Source of the DNA: Protofrankia sp. CiT1
GTDB lineage: Bacteria > Actinomycetota > Actinomycetes > Frankiales > Frankiaceae
Assembly (NCBI RefSeq): GCF_917627385.1
Contig: NZ_CAKJTL010000154.1
Coordinates: 1-34,701, forward strand
Length of the DNA stretch: 34,701 nucleotides
Direction: 5' to 3'
The position numbers were made by a program, and so were the translations under genes. The notes beneath the pieces are model-generated. The model worked only from the letters and a program-made list of their open reading frames with translations. It was not told where the DNA came from and ran no database searches. Positions 1 to 10,536 of the stretch are shown one piece after another. Within the stretch, counting starts at the first letter, position 1. Each line of letters starts with the position of its first letter.

Positions 1-2251
1 GCCCCACCCGGCCCGCGCCGAGGTCGATGACATCGAACCAGTCACCGCCTACCTCGGTGTCGGCAACGCCCGGCACATAGCGGGCAGCGATCTCAAGCCC
101 CTCAGGCTCGGCCACGGTCAACGGCAGGAGACTGCGTTGCAGCGTCAGCGCGGTGTCCCGGCTATGGCGATAGAGCTCGGCGTGCTCGACCGCGACCGCG
201 GCGCGCGCCGCGAGTTCCTCCAGGAACGCGACGTCCGCCCCGGTGAAGGGCGCACGGTCCCCGGCTGCCATGAGGCTGAGCACACCCGCCACCTGGCCGC
301 GCAGGATCAGCGGCACGGCGGCGAGAGTGTGTGCCCCCACGTGCCGCATCCAGCGGGCCATCTCCGTGGATGACAACCACGACGCGCCGCTCAGCGGTTC
401 GATACGGCTGTGCCCGGTGAGCGCGGCGAGGGTGACCGGGCTGTCGTCCGGCCACGGACCGGTACGGGCCCGCGGCATCGGCAGCCGGGTGAGGCCGGGA
501 CGGACAGCGGCGGCCGCCCGCCGCAGGACCGGGGCACCCGGCGGCACGGCGGTTGCCCCGGCGGGCTCGTCCTGATCGCTTTGGCTGGAACCGGCCGGCT
601 GGGCCGGCCCCAGCAGATACACCGCGCAGGAATCAGCGAGCTCGCTGACAACGACATCGGTGAGTGCCCGCAGAGCCCGCTCGGGCTCGAGCGCGCTCGA
701 GACCGCTCCGGTCGCGCGGGCCAGTAGTTCCAGGCGGCGGCCTGCCTCTCGCGCGGCGCCCTCGGCGATCCGTGCCATCTCCTCCGCCCGGCGGCTCGCC
801 TGTGCCTCGGCGAGAACCCGCTCGAACAGCGTGGCGCGCTCGAACGCCTGGGCGCACTGGTCGGCAAGCGCGGTCAGGAAGGCGCGGTCCTCCGGCGAGA
901 ACTCGCGCGGCGCGCGGAAACCGAAAAACAGCGCGCCGAACGGGGCGTCGGTGGTAGCCAGTGGAAGTACCGCCCACGCGTGCTCATCGGCATCGGTGAC
1001 GCTCGCGACCAGCGCTGGCACGGGCCAGCGTCCGGCGAGTTCCGCCCGGCCGGACAGAAACAACGCGCGACCACCTCGAATGGCCTCCGACAGCGGGTGG
1101 ATCGCGCCCAGGTTGATGTCAGACCAGCTGCTGACGAACCATGGCGGATAGCCGAGCAGGGACCGGAAGCGCAGGCAGCCGCTGCTCTGGTCGACCAACG
1201 CCGCCCCCCTGCCGGCCGCGTCCAAGGCCTGCTGCCCGGCTTCGAGCACGACGGTGGCCACCTCGTCGACGGTCACCGCGCGCGACAACGCGGCAGTGAC
1301 GAGCCGCAGGCGCTCGTTCCATTCAGCCGCGCTCCGCGCACGCGCCGCCAGCGCACTGTGGGCGCTGGCGGCCGCGCGTGCCTCGGTGACGTCACGGCTC
1401 GTGCCCACCCACTCGACCAAATGATCATCGCTTGTAACTGGCAGGAGCCGCAGGGCGAGGATGTGATCCGTGCCGTCCGCACCGGCGAGGCGGAACTCCG
1501 TCTCAAAGACGCCGCGCCGCTCGACCGCCTGCCGCCAGGCCCGCGCGACCCGGTCGCGGTCCTCGGCGTGCACCGCGTCAAGCCAGCCGAATCCGACGAT
1601 CTCCGCACGCCGCTGGCCCGTGATCGCTCGCCACCGCGGCAGGTCGACGTCCAGGCCGCCATGGGCATCCGTGTGGAAGACGTCCGCAGCCACAGCCTCG
1701 ACCAGCGCCTGGCACCTGGCCTCACCGCGGGCCGCCTCGCCACGGGCGTCGCTCAACGCGGTGATATCCGTGGCGACGAAGGCCACGCCGAGCAGCGCGC
1801 CGCGGGCATCGGTCGCCGGGTACCAGCTGACAGTCCAGGTCCGCGGCGGCTGCGGGCCGTCGGCCGCGACACTGACCTCCAGGTCCACCACGGGATCACC
1901 GGTGGTGACCACCCGCTGAAGCACCTCGTCCATCTCGCGGCCGATGTCCCCCAGCAATTCCGCTGTGGTGCGACCGATGTGCTCCGCGGCAGGGCGGCCG
2001 TTCAACCTGGCCAGGACGTCGTTGACCCGCACATAACGCCCCGCGGTGTCGTAGAGGGCGAGACCGACCGGCGCCTGGGCGACGAGCGCCGTCAGGAGCT
2101 CGACAATCGGCTCCGCCGCGCCGTTCGTGCCCTCGCCGCCAGCCGCTGGGCCGCGCCCGCGGGGCTCGCCATCACCGTCGTCGTCGGCCCGATCGCCGGT
2201 CGACCCAGCCGACGAAGGTCCGGACGGCTCCTCGAGGAACGGCGTCGTCAT
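1..2251 (-). CDS. PAS/GAF sensor SpoIIE-type serine phosphatase, 3' end outside window
   Basis: Read on the minus strand from ATG at 2251, the frame stays open to the window edge for about 750 codons. An acidic Gly/Ser-rich head is followed by a PAS-like domain (about residues 50-160, with APVGLALYDTAGRYVRVN) and a second PAS (about 170-285, ending in a VGTSRDVTEAR-type exit). A GAF-like domain follows (about 320-475), then a second GAF (about 500-665), then the start of a PP2C/SpoIIE phosphatase domain with LQRSLLP and VGGDWFDVI. This is the usual build of actinobacterial phosphatases that dephosphorylate anti-anti-sigma factors, so a role in partner-switching control of a sigma factor is likely, but the partner is not in the window. 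The catalytic C-terminus lies outside. No transmembrane segment is seen, so it should be cytosolic. No clear ribosome site precedes the ATG, so the start is less sure than the family. Confidence 0.85.
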   Translation of the reverse strand, partial: MTTPFLEEPSGPSSAGSTGDRADDDGDGEPRGRGPAAGGEGTNGAAEPIVELLTALVAQAPVGLALYDTAGRYVRVNDVLARLNGRPAAEHIGRTTAELLGDIGREMDEVLQRVVTTGDPVVDLEVSVAADGPQPPRTWTVSWYPATDARGALLGVAFVATDITALSDARGEAARGEARCQALVEAVAADVFHTDAHGGLDVDLPRWRAITGQRRAEIVGFGWLDAVHAEDRDRVARAWRQAVERRGVFETEFRLAGADGTDHILALRLLPVTSDDHLVEWVGTSRDVTEARAAASAHSALAARARSAAEWNERLRLVTAALSRAVTVDEVATVVLEAGQQALDAAGRGAALVDQSSGCLRFRSLLGYPPWFVSSWSDINLGAIHPLSEAIRGGRALFLSGRAELAGRWPVPALVASVTDADEHAWAVLPLATTDAPFGALFFGFRAPREFSPEDRAFLTALADQCAQAFERATLFERVLAEAQASRRAEEMARIAEGAAREAGRRLELLARATGAVSSALEPERALRALTDVVVSELADSCAVYLLGPAQPAGSSQSDQDEPAGATAVPPGAPVLRRAAAAVRPGLTRLPMPRARTGPWPDDSPVTLAALTGHSRIEPLSGASWLSSTEMARWMRHVGAHTLAAVPLILRGQVAGVLSLMAAGDRAPFTGADVAFLEELAARAAVAVEHAELYRHSRDTALTLQRSLLPLTVAEPEGLEIAARYVPGVADTEVGGDWFDVIDLGAGRVG

Positions 2252-2335: not shown

Positions 2336-5125
2336 TCACGAACACGCTCCGCCATGGAGCGTCCCCGGGCCCGGGACAGCTCCGACGTCGCGTGCGGATC
2401 CGGTCACCTCCGGAGCATCTTCATGGACATACCCGCTGGCGTCGTCCAGTCCGTGCTTTGGCGTGGGTGCCCACAGTTTGCGCGGCCCAGCGTCCGCGCG
2501 GGGCAGCCCGCGGCCCACGACGGCCTCCGCGGACAACACCGTGACCGACGACTTCGAGACAATGACCGGGTTCAGCGTGAGGGATGCCACCTCCGGCAGG
2601 TCGTCCGCGAGCCGCGCGACCCGCATGAGCAGCAGCTCAAGGGCTGCGACGTCGACGGTCTCCGCTCCCCGGTAACCGAACAGCAGGGGGGCGGCCCGGA
2701 CCGACCGCACCAGCCGCGCCGCGTCGGAGTCGGTGAGCGGCAGGATGTGGTGGGCACGGTCACCCAACAGATCGGTGGCGGGCCCAGCCAGCCCGAAGGA
2801 CACCAGCGGCCCGTATCGCGGATGCTCGAGGGAACCGACCACCACCGCGACCCCTGCCGGGGCCATCCGCTGCACGACGAATGACCCATTGGCGGCGAGC
2901 TGTGCGTCACCGCCGTTCCCGTCACCGAGCCGCGCCAGCATCGACGACCAGGCGGTCCGCAACGCCGCCGGGCCGAACAGGTCGAGCCGCTGCCCACCGA
3001 GCTCGGGGCGGTGCCGATACGGGCGGGCACGCGCTTTGAGGGCCACCGGCCACCCGAGCCGTTCCGCGGCCAGTACCGCCTCATCGGCGGAGGTGACCGT
3101 GCTGAACGGCTGGACGTCGATGCCGTAACAGTCGAGCAGATCGGCCACCCGGTCCTCGTCGAGCGGACCGGAAACGCCGGCGAGCAGCGTACGGGCCGCC
3201 TTGGCCCGCCGGGTGATCTCAGGCACCGAGCCGGCCGGCTCCGCGCGCCACTCAGCGTATGAGACGGCCCGCACCAAGGCCGCCACGGCGCCCTCCGGCG
3301 ACGGATAACCCGGCACACCAGCGAGATCCGGTGGTACCTCGGTGCCCAGAACCGTCGCGAGGACGGGCACGTCGACAACCTTCGCGGCGGCCGCGACCGC
3401 CCTCGCGACCGGGCCGGGTTCAGCCGGCGCCAGCCGCACCACCGTCGCGATCAGCGCGTCCGCACGGCCAGCCGCGTCGATGAGAACCTCGGTGAACGTC
3501 TCGGGCGGGGTGCCACCCGGCAGCAGGATCCGCTCCACCGCGAGCCCGGACGCCTCCGCGGCCTGGCAGGTCAGCCAGACCAGCGCCCGGGAGTCGCCGA
3601 CGACCGCGACCCGCCGCCCGGCCGGCAGCGGCTGGGCGGTCAGCAGCAGCGCCACATCGAAGCCCTGGGAGATCCGATCAACCCTGATCACGCCCGTCTG
3701 GCGCAGTAACGCGTCATCCAGGGGCGAGCGGCCGCTGGTCACCACCACGACCGGCGTGCGCCGTCCGACCCGGCGGGCCAGCCGGGCGAACTTCCGCGGG
3801 TTGCCGAAGGTCTCCACGTGCATGAAGACCACGTCGGTGGCTGGATCCTCCTCCCAGAACTGCAGAAGGTCGTTGCCACTCACGTCGACCCGGTCACCCG
3901 CTGAGACAAAACAGGACAGCCCAACCCCGCGGGCAGCCGCCGCCTCCAGCAGCGCCGCGCCGAGCGGGCCGGACTGTGAGTAGCAGCCGACCCGCCCAGG
4001 GGCGGGCATCCGGCCTGCCAACGACGCGTTGAGCCCGGTGGCGAGGTTCTGGATGCCCAGGCTCGCCGGCCCCACCACGCGCATGCCGAATGCGCGGGCC
4101 GCGGCTGTGACCTCGATCTCCGCCTGGTAGTCGCCGAGGTCGGTGAGCACCACCAGACCGCGGACGCCCTTACGGCCGCACTGGTCTATGATCTCGGGCA
4201 CGTTAGGCGGTGGCACGCACACCACGGCCAGGTCCACCGGGCCGTCGATGTCGGCCACCGAGGCGACCGCCCGTACCGAGGCGACCGCGCCCCCGACGTC
4301 AGCCGCGGCGGGGTTGACCGGATAGACCGGGCCGGCGAACCCACCGGCCAACAGGTGCCGGAAGACCGTGTGCCCCACCGCGTCGCGATCCCGGGAAGCC
4401 CCGATCACCGCGACGGACCGCGGGTGCAGCAGCCGGACGATCGACGCGGCCTCCGCGTGGTGCTCACGGGCACGCATGACGTCCACCGAGGTCTGCGTGG
4501 GTGCGATCTCAAAGGACAGCCGGACCGCCCCACTGTCCCACGCTCGTGACACACTGTAACCGGCGTCCAGAAAAACCCCGATCATCTGACGGTTCTCGCT
4601 GAGCACATCGGCGTCGAAACGACGGATCCCGCGTTCGGACGCCGCCGCCGCCAGATGTTCCAGCAGGACCGATCCGAGGCCGCGTCCCTGGTGGGCGTCT
4701 TCTACGAGAAAAGCGACCTCCGCGGCCAACGCCGGCCGCCGCGCCCCCGGTGGCGGCTCCTCCGCATCCGTCCGATCATGTTCGGCCGCCGGCGCCGGTG
4801 CGCCCTCCCAGTGGGCGATGGCCACGATCTCGTCCCCGATGAGCGCGACCAAGGCCCCACGCACCCACTGGTCGACAACGGTCATCCGCCGGATGTCGGT
4901 ATCGGTGAGCGGCCCGCGTGCGCTGAAGTAGCGGAAGTAGATGCTGCGCATCGACAGACGGCCCCAGAACGCGCGCAGCCGCTCACCGTCACCAGGTATG
5001 ACCGGACGAAGCCGGGCAGTACCCCCGTCAGCGAGGATGACGTCCGCCTCCCACCTCGCCGGGTAGCTCGCCCCGGCGTCGGCCCGCATCCCGTCGTCAT
5101 GGCTCGGCGGCACGGTGTCACTCAT
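2336..5125 (-). CDS. patA: PatA-type protein: N-terminal GNAT acetyltransferase fused to NDP-forming acyl-CoA ligase domain
   Basis: This is a 929-residue fusion. Residues about 25-215 form a GNAT acetyltransferase with the acetyl-CoA loop HQGRGLGSVLL. From about 230 there is a CoA-binding Rossmann domain (SVAVIGASRD), then a succinyl-CoA-ligase-like part (CYSQSGPLG), then an ATP-grasp part (about 660-890). The order GNAT first, ligase second, is that of Streptomyces lividans PatA, which acetylates acetoacetyl-CoA synthetase; Salmonella Pat has the reverse order. The segment after SGRS (about 460-475) goes straight to a DDALLRQTGVIRVD stretch and lacks the SHTGALAG-type loop that carries the phospho-histidine in active enzymes. 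The ligase half is therefore probably a sensor or regulatory domain. The ATG overlaps the acuC stop (ATGA), so the two are translationally coupled. The assignment as protein acetyltransferase is an inference from architecture and neighbours. Confidence 0.85.
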   Translation of the reverse strand: MSDTVPPSHDDGMRADAGASYPARWEADVILADGGTARLRPVIPGDGERLRAFWGRLSMRSIYFRYFSARGPLTDTDIRRMTVVDQWVRGALVALIGDEIVAIAHWEGAPAPAAEHDRTDAEEPPPGARRPALAAEVAFLVEDAHQGRGLGSVLLEHLAAAASERGIRRFDADVLSENRQMIGVFLDAGYSVSRAWDSGAVRLSFEIAPTQTSVDVMRAREHHAEAASIVRLLHPRSVAVIGASRDRDAVGHTVFRHLLAGGFAGPVYPVNPAAADVGGAVASVRAVASVADIDGPVDLAVVCVPPPNVPEIIDQCGRKGVRGLVVLTDLGDYQAEIEVTAAARAFGMRVVGPASLGIQNLATGLNASLAGRMPAPGRVGCYSQSGPLGAALLEAAAARGVGLSCFVSAGDRVDVSGNDLLQFWEEDPATDVVFMHVETFGNPRKFARLARRVGRRTPVVVVTSGRSPLDDALLRQTGVIRVDRISQGFDVALLLTAQPLPAGRRVAVVGDSRALVWLTCQAAEASGLAVERILLPGGTPPETFTEVLIDAAGRADALIATVVRLAPAEPGPVARAVAAAAKVVDVPVLATVLGTEVPPDLAGVPGYPSPEGAVAALVRAVSYAEWRAEPAGSVPEITRRAKAARTLLAGVSGPLDEDRVADLLDCYGIDVQPFSTVTSADEAVLAAERLGWPVALKARARPYRHRPELGGQRLDLFGPAALRTAWSSMLARLGDGNGGDAQLAANGSFVVQRMAPAGVAVVVGSLEHPRYGPLVSFGLAGPATDLLGDRAHHILPLTDSDAARLVRSVRAAPLLFGYRGAETVDVAALELLLMRVARLADDLPEVASLTLNPVIVSKSSVTVLSAEAVVGRGLPRADAGPRKLWAPTPKHGLDDASGYVHEDAPEVTGSARDVGAVPGPGTLHGGACS

Positions 5126-6384
5126 CTGTCGACGAGGGGGTCGAGACCATGCAGCGGAAGGATCTCTCGCCGGGTGGCCGCCACCGCCCGGTCCAGGGGG
5201 TCATCCGGATCACCCTCGCCTGCCTCCCAGGGATGGAAGGCGATGTCGACGCCGTCGCCGAAACGGTCGGGCGTGGGACCGCCAGCGACGGCCGCGCCGG
5301 TGGCCTCCCGCACGCGGGCGTCAGCCGTGTGCCGCCACTCCTGCGGCAGCGACCGCGAGCAGTCCAGCGGCACGTGGCCGGCAATGGCCAGCAGGTGCGT
5401 CCAGGCGCGTGGCACCACCGACGCGAGCGCATAGCCACCGCCCCCGCAGGCAACCCATCGTCCGCCGCACACGTCATGTGCCAGATCGTGCAGGGCCTGG
5501 TAGGAAGCACGCTGTCCGTCGACCGACAGTGTCAGATCCCCGAGCGGATCGAGGAAATGTGTGTCACACCCGTGCTGGGTGACCAGGATCTCAGGGGCGA
5601 ACTCACGCAGCAGCACCGGAACCACCCCGCTGAACGCTCGCAGCCATCCGGCGTCTCCGGTGCGCGGCGGCAGCGCGACGTTGACCGACATACCGCTGGC
5701 CTCCCCTGTCCCGGATTCGTCCGGGAAACCGGTGCCGGGAAACAGGGTCCGGCCGGACTGGTGCAAGGAGATCGTCAGTACCCGTGGGTCATCGTAGAAA
5801 GCGGTCTGGACACCGTCACCGTGATGAACGTCGACGTCGACGTAGGCCACCCGAGCGGCCCCGTTGCGCAGCAACCAGGCGATCGCCACCGCCGGGTCGT
5901 TGTAGACGCAGAACCCACTGGCGGCGAGACGCATCGCATGGTGGAGCCCGCCCGCGGGAGCCACGGCATGGCCGTGCCGTCCCGTCCACACGCCCTCGGC
6001 CGCGGCCAGCGTCCCACCGGTAATCCGAGCGGCGGCGGTGTGCATGGACTCGAAGACCGGGTTGTCCGGCGTTCCCAGACCGAACATGGTCGCCAATCCG
6101 CGCGCGGCGTACCACGGCGCCTGGCGCACCGCCTGCACGTACGCGGGATCGTGCACAAGTTCGATCAAGTCATCCGTGGCGAGCTGAGGCGGCCGGACCG
6201 CCACCTGGGGGCCGTCCAGCACGCCGGTACGCGCGGCGAGATCCATGGTCAGCTCGAGCCGCACGGGATGCAGCGGGTGTCCGCGCCCGAAGCCGTAATC
6301 AGCCAGCTCGGAATCCCACATGACCAGTGTTGGCCCGGGATCACCACCGTCAGCGGAACCGTTCGGCCGCGAAGCACTGCCCAT
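5122..6384 (-). CDS. acuC: AcuC-type class I histone-deacetylase-like lysine deacetylase
   Basis: A 420-residue arginase/deacetylase-fold protein, near the family length. Diagnostic parts are the GGLHHAM pair of histidines, the zinc-site YVDVDVHHGDGV, the second zinc aspartate in QHGCDTHFLDPLG, and the GGGGY loop with the catalytic-pocket tyrosine. All residues needed for Zn-dependent removal of acetyl groups from lysine appear present. In Bacillus, AcuC reverses AcuA acetylation of acetyl-CoA synthetase. Here the gene sits between a PatA-type acetylase (4-bp overlap) and a divergent acetoacetyl-CoA synthetase, so deacetylation of that enzyme is the natural guess. The ATG at 6384 has no Shine-Dalgarno but lies 6 nt behind a TAGGGT, which suggests a leaderless mRNA. 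Confidence 0.9.
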   Translation of the reverse strand: MGSASRPNGSADGGDPGPTLVMWDSELADYGFGRGHPLHPVRLELTMDLAARTGVLDGPQVAVRPPQLATDDLIELVHDPAYVQAVRQAPWYAARGLATMFGLGTPDNPVFESMHTAAARITGGTLAAAEGVWTGRHGHAVAPAGGLHHAMRLAASGFCVYNDPAVAIAWLLRNGAARVAYVDVDVHHGDGVQTAFYDDPRVLTISLHQSGRTLFPGTGFPDESGTGEASGMSVNVALPPRTGDAGWLRAFSGVVPVLLREFAPEILVTQHGCDTHFLDPLGDLTLSVDGQRASYQALHDLAHDVCGGRWVACGGGGYALASVVPRAWTHLLAIAGHVPLDCSRSLPQEWRHTADARVREATGAAVAGGPTPDRFGDGVDIAFHPWEAGEGDPDDPLDRAVAATRREILPLHGLDPLVDR

Positions 6385-6390
6385 GATTCG

Positions 6391-6396
6391 ACCCTA
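6391..6396 (-). promoter_or_regulatory. Candidate -10 for leaderless acuC transcript
   Basis: TAGGGT on the minus strand fits the actinobacterial TANNNT -10, and the acuC ATG begins 6 nt later, so transcription would start at or next to the start codon. No Shine-Dalgarno is present. The first TA belongs to the end of a dispersed repeat, so that repeat may supply part of the promoter. No good -35 is seen. Confidence 0.4.
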
Positions 6397-6449
6397 CGGC
6401 GTGTTGCGGAAGCCGTCGTTCGATCAGGGAACCGCGTCCAGGTGGCTGC
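6395..6449. repeat. Dispersed repeat A, copy 1 (half element)
   Basis: These 55 bp match the reverse complement of 13565-13619 with three mismatches. This copy has the GGCGTGTTGCGGAAG end but lacks the opposite inverted end. It forms the upstream region of acuC. Confidence 0.8.
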
Positions 6450-6473
6450 TGGCAAGGCCGCGAGCCGGACAGT

Positions 6474-6524
6474 CCTATTGCCGGGCGCTCCACGAGCGAC
6501 CGGCAATAGGGGACGCGGCGTCGC
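6474..6524. repeat. Repeat C: near-perfect hairpin plus shared flank
   Basis: CCTATTGCCGG (6474-6484) and CCGGCAATAGG (6500-6510) are perfect inverted arms. CGCTC and GAGCG extend the stem inside, leaving one mismatch and a 3-nt loop. Positions 6497-6524 match 32648-32675 at 26 of 28 bases, and 6474-6490 match 32720-32736 at 15 of 17. It has the look of two element ends abutting. Confidence 0.75.
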
Positions 6525-6532
6525 CAGCGGCA

Positions 6533-6598
6533 CAGTCCGGCCAGTCCGGCCACTCCGGCCACTCCGGCCAGGCCCGCCGACCAGGCCAACCAGGCCAA
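6533..6598. repeat. Two short tandem arrays with 9-bp period
   Basis: CAGTCCGGC twice and CACTCCGGC twice stand in a row at 6533-6568. CCAGGCCAA occurs twice at 6581-6598. They lie in the non-coding divergent region between acuC and aacS. Confidence 0.8.
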
Positions 6599-6678
6599 AG
6601 GCGGCGGCTGGTCGCACGGCGTGATTTTTTCGACGCACCCCGGCCGTCGAGTGGACCATTTCGGCCTCCCGTATTCGT

Positions 6679-6684
6679 TAGGGT
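6679..6684 (+). promoter_or_regulatory. Candidate -10 for leaderless aacS transcript
   Basis: TAGGGT lies 8 nt before GTG 6693. The same hexamer precedes acuC on the other strand. The rest of 6385-6692, a 308-bp stretch without a gene, holds repeats A and C and the 9-bp arrays; I see no other gene in it. Confidence 0.4.
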
Positions 6685-6692
6685 CTGAGTCC

Positions 6693-8723
6693 GTGGCTGT
6701 TGGACACGATGATGAACACGAGATTGCGCCAGATGCCGGGCCCAGGATGGATATCGCGGGACGGCGGTTGTGGACGCCATCTCCGCAGCGGGTCCGCGCC
6801 GCCGGGGTCACCGCCTATCTGGACTGGCTGGCCACCGAACGCGACCGGAAGCTGAGCGGTGCCACGGCTTTGTGGCAGTGGTCGGTGGACGACCTTGACG
6901 GGTTCTGGGACTCGATCTGGGATTTCTGCGCGGTCGAGGGCGAGCGCGGGGACGGCCCTGCCCTTGCCGACGCCCGGATGCCGGGCGCTCAGTGGTTCCC
7001 GACCGCCCGCGTGAACTATGCCGAGAACGCTTTAACGCGACATGGCCCCGCACCCGCGGTGATCGCCGTCCGCGAGGACTCGACCACCGCCGTGGTCTCC
7101 TGGGACGAACTTCGCCGCGAGGTCGCGGCGGCCGCGGCGGGGCTGCGGCGCCTGGGTGTGCGTCCCGGCGACCGGGTCTGCGCCGTGCTGCCGAACTGCG
7201 TCCATGCCGTGGTGGCCATGCTCGCCGCGACCAGCGTCGGCGCGGTCTGGTCGTGCTGTTCCCCGGATTTCGGGTCTTCCGCCATTGCCGACCGTTTCGC
7301 TCAGATCACCCCAACGGTACTCATCGGGGTGGACGGCTACACCTACGGCGGAAAGTCCTTTGACACGCTCGGCGCGCTCGGTGGCGTGGCCGACCGTCTG
7401 CCAGACCTGCGGGCAATGGTCGTGATCCCATACCTGGCCGCGGATGCCGTCGAGCGTGCCCACAAGGCCCACCTACCGGCTGTCATCTCCTGGGCGGACC
7501 TGCTCGCCGGCTGCGATGACCAGGTCCCCGCCTTCCACCGGGTCCCCTTCGACTCGCCGCTGTGGATCCTGTACTCCTCGGGTTCGACCGGCCGCCCGAA
7601 ACCGATCGTGCAGGGCCATGGCGGAATCCTGTTGGAACACCTCAAGTCGCTGGTACTCCATCTCGATCTGGGACCTGACGATCGCTTCCTGTGGGTGACG
7701 AGCACCGGCTGGATGATGTGGAACCTGCTCGTGTCCGGCCTGCTGACCGGGGCGACCGTCGTGCTTTTCGACGGCAGCCCGAAGTTCCCCGACCTGGGGA
7801 CCCTGTGGCGGCTCGCCGAGGCCGTCCGCATCACCTGCCTGGGAGCAAGTCCCGGCCTGCTGGCCGCGTGTGAACGCTCGGGCATCGTCCCGCGGGAGAT
7901 CGCCGACCTCTCCGCGATACGTACCATCGGTTCCACCGGCTCGCCGTTGTCCCCGGCCGGGTACGCCTGGGTGTACGACGCGGTCGGCTCCGACCTGATG
8001 CTCTCGTCGGTCAGCGGCGGCACGGACATGTGCACGGCGGTCGCGGCGGGCCTGCCCACGCTGGCAGTGCACGCCGGGGAGATCTCCATGCGCGGGCTCG
8101 GGTGCGCGGTGAGCATCTTCGACGGCGACGGCAAGGAACTCGTCGACGAGATCGGCGAACTGGTGCTCACCGCGCCCATGCCCTCGATGCCGCTCTTCTT
8201 CTGGGGCGACGATGACGGCTCGCTGCTGCGCGCGTCCTACTTCTCGACCTACCACGGCGTATGGCGCCACGGTGACTGGGCCAGGATCACCCCCACCGGA
8301 TCAATGATCATATATGGCCGCTCGGACGCGACCCTGAAGCGCGGCGGAGTCCGGCTGGGTACCGCCGAGTTCTACCAGGTGCTGGACAGCATCCCCGGCG
8401 TGGCGGACAGCATGATCATCGATACCTCGACCGCCGAGCGGCCAGGTGAGCTCGTGCTGTACGTCGTGCTGGACGACAACGGAACGCTTGCCGACTCCTT
8501 CATCAGCTCCCTGCTGACGACGATCAGAAGGGAGCTGAGCCCCCGGCATGTGCCTGACCGCGTCGAACAGGTCTCCGCGATTCCCCGCACCTACAACGGC
8601 AAGAAACTGGAAGTGCCGGTTCGGCGCCTGCTGCTGGGTGCAGCCCTGGAGCAGGCCGTCAACCTCGGCATGGTCGCCAATCCCGAGGCGTTGCTGCCGT
8701 TCATCCCGCCCGCGGCCAGCTGA
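6693..8723 (+). CDS. aacS: Acetoacetyl-CoA synthetase (AMP-forming)
   Basis: This adenylate-forming ligase (676 residues from the chosen start) converts acetoacetate, ATP and CoA to acetoacetyl-CoA. The N-terminal part has the family's LWTPSPQRV and FPTARVNYAENAL blocks. The ATP-binding signature is LWILYSSGSTGRPKPIV, followed by STGWMMWN and SGGTDMCTA typical of acetoacetyl-CoA synthetases. The C-terminal lid has SDATLKRGGVRLGTAEFY and ends with PRTYNGKK, a P-x4-G-K motif whose lysine (about residue 637 from this start) is the catalytic lysine and known acetylation site in this superfamily. The frame is open further upstream to 6621. I prefer GTG 6693 because a TAGGGT lies 8 nt before it, as in leaderless actinobacterial genes; ATG 6747 is another candidate. 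It is divergent from acuC-patA and convergent with sigA. Confidence 0.92.
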   Translation: MAVGHDDEHEIAPDAGPRMDIAGRRLWTPSPQRVRAAGVTAYLDWLATERDRKLSGATALWQWSVDDLDGFWDSIWDFCAVEGERGDGPALADARMPGAQWFPTARVNYAENALTRHGPAPAVIAVREDSTTAVVSWDELRREVAAAAAGLRRLGVRPGDRVCAVLPNCVHAVVAMLAATSVGAVWSCCSPDFGSSAIADRFAQITPTVLIGVDGYTYGGKSFDTLGALGGVADRLPDLRAMVVIPYLAADAVERAHKAHLPAVISWADLLAGCDDQVPAFHRVPFDSPLWILYSSGSTGRPKPIVQGHGGILLEHLKSLVLHLDLGPDDRFLWVTSTGWMMWNLLVSGLLTGATVVLFDGSPKFPDLGTLWRLAEAVRITCLGASPGLLAACERSGIVPREIADLSAIRTIGSTGSPLSPAGYAWVYDAVGSDLMLSSVSGGTDMCTAVAAGLPTLAVHAGEISMRGLGCAVSIFDGDGKELVDEIGELVLTAPMPSMPLFFWGDDDGSLLRASYFSTYHGVWRHGDWARITPTGSMIIYGRSDATLKRGGVRLGTAEFYQVLDSIPGVADSMIIDTSTAERPGELVLYVVLDDNGTLADSFISSLLTTIRRELSPRHVPDRVEQVSAIPRTYNGKKLEVPVRRLLLGAALEQAVNLGMVANPEALLPFIPPAAS

Positions 8724-8844: not shown

Positions 8845-10116
8845 TCAGTCGAGAAACTCGCGCAACCTGCTCGCGACCGCCGGCTTACGCAGTTCGCGAA
8901 GGGTGTCGCGCTCAATCTGGCGAATCCGCTCACGGGTCAGCCCGAGACGGTTACCGACCTCGGCAAGCGTGTGCTGCTTGCCGTCGGCGAGGCCGAAGCG
9001 CAGCCGCATGACCTCACGTTCACGCGGTGTGAGCCCACTCAACACGCCCTCGATCTCGTCCTGCATGGCGCCGTAGGAGGCGGCGTCCGCGGGAGAGGTG
9101 GCATCCGCATCCTCGATGAAGTCACCGAGGACCGAATCCCCGTCGTCGCCCACCGCGGTCTCCAGGCTGACCGTGTCCTGGGCGTACCGGCGCAGTTCGA
9201 CGACCTGCTCGATCGGCATGTCGAGCTCCAGAGCCAGCTCCTCGTCAGTCGGTTCCCGACCGAGTGTGGAGACGAGCTGGCGCTGCAGCCGAGTGATCTT
9301 GTTGATCTGCTCGACGACATGGACCGGGATCCGGATCGTCCTGGCCTGATCGGCCAGTGCCCGACCGATCGCCTGCCTGATCCACCAGGTGGCGTAGGTC
9401 GAGAACTTGTAGCCCTTGGCGTAGTCGAACTTCTCGACCGCGCGGATCAGCCCGAGGTTTCCCTCCTGAACCAGGTCGAGCAGGGTCATGCCACGACCGC
9501 TGTACTTCTTGGCGACCGAAACCACCAGGCGCAGGTTCGCCGAGACCAGCTGCTGTTTTGCCGCATGCCCGTCCCGGACCAGGGTCCCGAGATCGCGCCG
9601 CAGCGCCGGCTCCAGGTCGGAGTCAGTGTCCAGCTTGTACTCGGCAAACAGGCCGGCTTCGACCCGCTTGGACAGCTCGACTTCCTGCGCGGCGTTGAGC
9701 AGGGGTACCTTGCCGATCTCGCGCAGGTACATGCGCACGAGATCGGCCGTTCCGGCATGCTCCGAGGTTGCGCGGGCAGCCGGTGCTCCACCTGTTGACT
9801 CCTCCTCGTCGAGAACCTCGACGCCAAGGGCTGTCAACCGGGCAGTCAGAACGGGAAGTAGTTCAAGACCGAGGTCAGCGGTCTCGAGCGCTTCGCGAAG
9901 TTCGGCGCGGCTCAATTCGCCGGATTCGCGCCCACGCGCGACAAGCTCGGCGACCTGAGTAACGTCGAGTTCGTCGGTATCATCGGGCACGGCGGCCAGG
10001 CCACGGCCGGGCACCGTGCGTGCAGGAGTGGCCGACCGACGGGTGCGCCGCGTACTTGTGGCACGCGTACGCGGCTCGTCGGGGCGCTCATGAAGTTCCA
10101 GGGCAGGCAGCGTCAT
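8845..10116 (-). CDS. sigA: Primary RNA polymerase sigma factor (SigA/HrdB type)
   Basis: A sigma-70 group 1 protein. Visible parts are a region 1.1-like helical stretch ([19 protein letters not shown]), region 1.2 ([12 protein letters not shown]), and region 2 with [19 protein letters not shown] and the tryptophan-rich [17 protein letters not shown]. Region 3 begins at [11 protein letters not shown], and region 4 has [15 protein letters not shown] and the helix-turn-helix [19 protein letters not shown]. The frame is open up to 10278, but I choose ATG 10116 (423 residues) because the upstream 54 codons look non-coding and contain an inverted repeat and a promoter-like sequence. No good Shine-Dalgarno precedes this ATG, so the start is tentative. 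The protein lacks the long Lys/Ala-rich N-terminal extension of Streptomyces HrdB. Region 1.1 argues for the housekeeping sigma rather than a group 2 sigma. Confidence 0.9.
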
Positions 10117-10174
10117 CAGTAGCAGATCCGAAGGTCGGTGCGGGTGGCGGGTCTTGGTGCTTGCACGTATGGGC

Positions 10175-10201
10175 AACGCCTGACGGCGTCCCTCCCATTC
10201 C
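10175..10201 (-). promoter_or_regulatory. Candidate sigma-R (SigR/SigH-type) promoter of sigA
   Basis: On the minus strand GGAAT (10201-10197) and GTT (10177-10175) are separated by 19 bp, close to the GGAAT-N18/19-GTT pattern of thiol-stress sigma factors. It lies about 60 bp before the sigA start. In Streptomyces one hrdB promoter is of this type. Confidence 0.4.
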
Positions 10202-10234
10202 GCGTTCAGACACAACCGGACGTAAGCGATCGCC

Positions 10235-10258
10235 GGGTCTACGAAGCAGTGTAGACCC
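10235..10258. repeat. Perfect 8-bp inverted repeat upstream of sigA
   Basis: GGGTCTAC and GTAGACCC are separated by 8 nt. A TACACT that could serve as a -10 lies across one arm on the minus strand. It could be an operator or leader hairpin. The 430-bp gap 10117-10546 also holds a 9-bp direct repeat CTCTTCAGG at 10336 and 10349; I see no convincing gene there. Confidence 0.5.
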
Positions 10259-10536
10259 TCGCTCTCGGGACGCCGCACCCGCTGTCGCGAAGACTACCCT
10301 GCGGACCGGCCGGTGTGTCGCGAATAACTAACTATCTCTTCAGGCCCGCTCTTCAGGTCTCCGCGGCCACGATGTCAATACCGAGCCCAGGAACAACAAA
10401 TCGCCAATACAGCACCAACCTCCATCGAAACCCATAAGGGTGGTTACGGTATGGCGCCGCACCCGCCGCGCAGTGACCATTCGCGCCAAACAGGGGTCCG
10501 TTGATCAGAATTCGAGAGTGGTACCGCGGGCGCGGC

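Follow-up and report, generated by a model that had tools for sequence, protein, structure and literature searches.

A predicted PatA-AcuC reversible lysine-acetylation pair and its family-specific neighbour, an acetoacetyl-CoA synthetase, in Protofrankia

The window, meaning the whole stretch of 34,701 nucleotides of Protofrankia sp. CiT1 DNA that was analysed, carries side by side the genes patA (2336-5125, minus strand), acuC (5122-6384, minus strand) and, divergent from acuC, aacS (6693-8723, plus strand). Pfam and PDB matches identify the patA product (929 aa) as a protein lysine acetyltransferase of the SlPatA type, with an N-terminal GNAT domain (PF00583, approximately aa 19-207, 4505-5071 on the minus strand) that contains the acetyl-CoA motif AEVAFLVEDAHQGRGLG, followed by a C-terminal region resembling NDP-forming acyl-CoA synthetases (approximately aa 230-868, 2522-4438 on the minus strand) in which Pfam recognised CoA-binding, succinyl-CoA-ligase and ATP-grasp_5 domains. 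This is the order, GNAT first and ligase domain second, that the first-pass annotation had read for the acetylase. The closest relatives of the GNAT domain in a PDB sequence search were 4nxy and 4u5y (158 bits), both structures of the GNAT domain of S. lividans PatA, and the GNAT motif was kept in every PatA of the family alignment. The SHTG phospho-histidine loop fell into a gap in the alignment to 8wzu and an [SA]H[ST]G motif was found in none of the PatA proteins of the family, so the ligase-like region is probably non-catalytic and would be sensor-like rather than a working ligase. PatA is present as a single copy in the genome.

The acuC gene codes for a predicted zinc-dependent lysine deacetylase of the HDAC type (420 aa; PF00850, E 4.5e-83) with the residues of the classical enzymes in place, the HH pair (H148, H149), the DxH motif (D185, H187), the further aspartate (D274) and the tyrosine (Y318) all being invariant across the aligned family. 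It is the only PF00850 protein in the genome. Its stop codon and the patA start share an ATGA overlap of 4 bp (5122-5125, minus strand), as had been described from the letters together with the HDAC-type assignment, and would couple translation of the two genes.

Thirty-five genomes of the family Frankiaceae were surveyed, including those of the host genus Protofrankia (g1; G000 and G023-G026), along with Frankia (g2), Pseudofrankia (g7) and a genus that is probably Parafrankia (g6). The 4 bp overlap of acuC and patA also occurs in Protofrankia, all g6 and several Frankia genomes. A search for SIR2 gave no match in the host genome while the same search was positive in 10 of 14 control genomes, and SIR2-family proteins were missing from all five Protofrankia genomes and present in 29 of the 30 other family members, most of which encode one or two. 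With no sirtuin encoded, AcuC is the only candidate eraser of known type here; a deacetylase of an unrecognised family may still exist.

The aacS product (676 aa) was identified as an acetoacetyl-CoA synthetase by scores above the curated cut-offs of NF002937 (887 against 639 bits) and TIGR01217 (769 against 521 bits) and by an end-to-end alignment to its top PDB match, 4wd1 (668 bits). The ATP loop SSGSTGRPK and the RHGDW, GRSDATL and PRTYNGKK motifs are intact, and the C-terminal PX4GK lysine, Lys637 (PRTYNGK; codon 8601-8603, plus strand) by the 4wd1 and motif alignments, is the predicted catalytic and acetyl-acceptor residue equivalent to K617 of S. lividans AacS. In two family members (L122 and L123, genomes G013 and G009) the glycine of PX4GK is replaced, giving TAKK and TDKK, and the lysine is kept. 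The genome holds one AacS. It also encodes elsewhere two Acs-like synthetases with SGK motifs, so AacS is not the sole candidate substrate of PatA. The identity and the orientation away from acuC stand as first proposed, and only the start codon is revised. A start at 6621 had been assumed, but the most likely start is GTG 6693, since conservation with congener DNA begins only at 6673 and the arrangement TAGGGT-N8-GTG (6679-6695) is found family-wide.

A -10-like TAGGGT element lies 8 nt upstream of the aacS GTG (6679-6684, plus strand) and a second lies 6 nt upstream of the acuC ATG (6391-6396, minus strand), where they would serve as promoters of aacS and of acuC-patA. The pattern TAGGGTC-N2-10-RTG was present in 30 of 34 aacS regions of the family, against 0.06 expected after shuffling, and no such element was seen at the aacS start of G015 or G014; related TACCGT elements occur upstream of acuC in several relatives. 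The conserved spacing between TAGGGT and GTG suggests that the aacS mRNA is probably leaderless, and the presence of the element near both starts suggests two leaderless, divergent transcripts. An operator shared between the two genes was considered and rejected, as conservation in the intergenic region was limited to the -10-like elements. Adjoining patA on the other side is a large PAS/GAF multidomain protein (2-2251, minus strand) that continues past the left end of the window and is a possible sensor. The sigma factor gene sigA (8845-10278, minus strand), a flanking gene outside the proposed switch, keeps its position in almost every locus of the family and is followed by nrdJ and lexA.

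The comparison across relatives that the first-pass annotation had called for found patA, acuC and an intact aacS side by side in 23 of the 35 family genomes (two Protofrankia, thirteen Frankia and eight Pseudofrankia). In seven further genomes, all six of g6 and G015, the acuC-patA pair lies beside a degenerate AacS, which in G015 is 1.2 kb from acuC. The co-location within the family is not due to chance. Of the remainder, G014 has AacS and acuC-patA on separate contigs, no AacS was found in G016 (63% complete), and three Protofrankia genomes (G023, G024 and G026) have AacS and lack both patA and acuC.

In these three congeners the flanks of the window align on both sides, patA is gone and acuC is reduced to fragments that lie between the PAS/GAF gene and aacS (L100 8094-8340; L101 7781-7840, in reverse-complement coordinates; L102 1969-2085); the assemblies are only 81-88% complete, with the locus itself on a contig. 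Their AacS is intact, including the catalytic lysine. Since the three genomes group as a single clade in the tree of AacS, the co-loss was probably a single event, and a joint loss of writer and eraser is understandable in a genus that encodes no sirtuin. The persistence of AacS without PatA and AcuC counts against a switch dedicated to this enzyme.

The seven genomes with degenerate AacS count against it from the other side, as PatA and AcuC persist there, with motifs intact, beside a synthetase that has lost its lysine. In all six g6 genomes AacS ends at the domain hinge (548-569 aa), so that the C-terminal domain and its lysine are absent, and the ATP loop glycine, the ribose-binding aspartate of RHGD and the hinge arginine are lost as well. 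In G015 the C-terminal domain remains, the catalytic lysine is replaced by Glu and the other motifs are broken. Scores fell below the NF002937 cut-off of 639 bits (545, 579 and 534 for three g6 copies and 450 for G015), and with the cut-off, the ATP motifs and the catalytic lysine all lost these proteins no longer qualify as acetoacetyl-CoA synthetases. No other AacS was found elsewhere in the six g6 genomes or in G015 at E<=1e-100. A frameshift or assembly error behind the short g6 proteins was rejected, as the same hinge end recurs six times and no C-terminal domain could be read downstream in either of the other two frames.

The g6 copies nevertheless appear to be maintained. Median dN/dS within g6 was 0.37 for AacS and 0.25 for both acuC and patA, compared to 0.30 and 0.20 for working AacS of Frankia and Pseudofrankia, respectively, and the g6 consensus keeps 194 of the 221 positions fixed in working AacS (residues 1-520). 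The lack of stop codons was set aside as proof of selection because it carries little weight in DNA so rich in GC (neutral simulation P ~0.3 per pair). The case is made instead by dN/dS and the retained residues, for which purifying selection on a non-catalytic protein is the simplest reading. All g6 copies share a single lysine, at the position of residue 318 in the host AacS. The TAGGGT-N8-GTG start region is also retained, and together with purifying selection this raises the prospect of a new regulatory role. We put forward tentatively, with somewhat more doubt than confidence, that AacS is a pseudoenzyme in g6 and G015, and that in g6 it now acts without catalysis, as a partner, a decoy or a regulator that binds a ligand, on PatA-AcuC or on acetoacetate/CoA metabolism.

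In S. lividans, SlPatA acetylates and inactivates SlAacS (PMC4053389), the target residue being K617 and the preference over Acs approximately 34-fold (PMC8007912), which bears out the precedent that had been named for this locus. The host locus shares with this system the PatA architecture, the substrate class and the acceptor lysine motif, and structures of relatives match both host proteins. The Streptomyces genes are far apart in the genomes examined, among the matches listed, and the deacetylase shown to reverse SlAacS acetylation is of the sirtuin type (PMC8007912; table in PMC6640162), in contrast to the adjacent AcuC and absent sirtuin of the host. The layout finds its counterpart in B. 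subtilis, where AcsA, encoded divergently from the acu operon, is acetylated by AcuA and returned to activity by AcuC (PMC11255334). In both loci an operon encodes an acetylase together with AcuC, and an AMP-forming acyl-CoA synthetase reads away from it, but AcuA is a small GNAT and not a PatA, its target is AcsA, and the host locus has the order acuC-patA with no AcuB (CBS-ACT) in between. The two loci would work alike, while their operons are not homologous. The host locus joins a predicted writer and substrate of the Streptomyces type to a layout and predicted eraser of the Bacillus type.

The Pat-CobB system of Salmonella enterica likewise places the active-site lysine of an AMP-forming synthetase, Acs, under reversible acetylation, the acetylase again being a GNAT with a ligase-like domain attached. 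There the domain order is reversed, the eraser is an NAD+-dependent sirtuin and the genes are not clustered with acs. In the literature collection searched, nothing linked Frankia with acetoacetyl-CoA synthetase.

At the level of the class 247 genomes were surveyed and the lists of matches were read by eye. AacS was present in 97 genomes outside the family (E<=1e-150), and among the matches listed none lay near AcuC or PatA, the closest cases on a shared contig being approximately 44 kb and 62 kb away. The first-pass annotation had named the separation of the three genes in relatives as evidence against their joint function, and for AacS outside Frankiaceae this separation is what was found. 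The acuC-patA adjacency on the other hand recurs in at least six other families (Micromonosporaceae, Pseudonocardiaceae, a Propionibacteriaceae MAG, a Sporichthyaceae MAG and the lettered families f10, f30, f32 and f41, which may coincide with named ones), often near nrdJ and a sigma factor. On this distribution acuC-patA is an old unit that predates its linkage to AacS, a family-specific neighbour. In the Sporichthyaceae MAG (L145 1-2601) acuC-patA is immediately preceded, on the same strand, by a true Acs whose sequence shares 73-74% identity with the Acs of the host genome.

These distributions raise the possibility that AacS is merely syntenic, having come to lie between acuC and sigA in the ancestor of Frankiaceae and been kept there by a stable sigA-nrdJ-lexA order while PatA and AcuC regulate Acs and other proteins. 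Consistent with this, the positions of sigA and nrdJ are conserved to the same degree as that of AacS, the order nrdJ...acuC-patA exists in Micromonosporaceae without AacS, AacS function and the PatA-AcuC pair each disappeared without the other, the two Acs paralogues bear SGK motifs, and it is Acs rather than AacS that precedes the pair in the Sporichthyaceae MAG. We nonetheless consider this rather unlikely. The one characterised PatA of the same architecture favours AacS by the margin given above (PMC8007912), and an AMP-forming synthetase sits beside AcuC and an acetylase in independent lineages, namely Frankiaceae, the Sporichthyaceae MAG and Bacillus, so the linkage exceeds what neutral drift would lead one to expect.

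A broader alternative, that PatA and AcuC form a global acetylation system with many targets among which AacS and Acs are minor, would fit the sole PatA and the sole deacetylase of known type in the genome, and StrM is a further substrate of SlPatA and of an S. griseus orthologue (PMC8007912). Against this, characterised Pat-type enzymes mainly modify AMP-forming synthetases and three congeners tolerate the loss of patA-acuC, which makes such a system improbable here.

The reading we favour, with reasonable though far from full confidence, is a PatA-AcuC switch acting on AacS as a likely but non-exclusive target in the host genome. We infer the enzymatic activities in the organism, the substrate choice, the sensor role and the promoters from the DNA and its relatives, and propose that acuC-patA forms a two-gene module for reversible lysine acetylation. 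PatA would transfer acetyl groups from acetyl-CoA onto the lysine in the active site of AMP-forming acyl-CoA synthetases and so block acyl-AMP formation, with its non-catalytic CoA-ligase-like region probably acting as the gate, and AcuC with zinc would hydrolyse the acetyl group and restore activity. The adjacent AacS (K637) would be the most likely substrate here, with the two Acs paralogues as possible further ones. AacS, which lies between acuC and sigA and would have a divergent, probably leaderless promoter of its own, is on this view a family-specific neighbour and not an obligatory part. The self-contained AacS switch proposed at first thus survives as a count, one PatA, one AcuC and no SIR2 in this genome, and gives way on exclusiveness to the three congeners with AacS alone, the seven lysine-less AacS proteins and the two Acs with SGK motifs. 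As judged from sequence comparison, AacS is neither the sole nor an obligatory target, and the three genes form one unit only in the sense of their place within the family, the predicted functional unit being acuC-patA.

Actinobacterial AcuC proteins have long been catalogued beside sirtuins with an unclear division of labour. As sirtuins are missing in Protofrankia, which has a single AcuC and a single PatA, an acuC deletion in this genus should leave acetylated AacS unrescued and would be a clean test of whether AcuC erases PatA marks. The congeners lacking both enzymes and the genus with dead AacS are ready natural controls, and the g6 AacS may be a case of an acyl-CoA synthetase turned regulatory pseudoenzyme.
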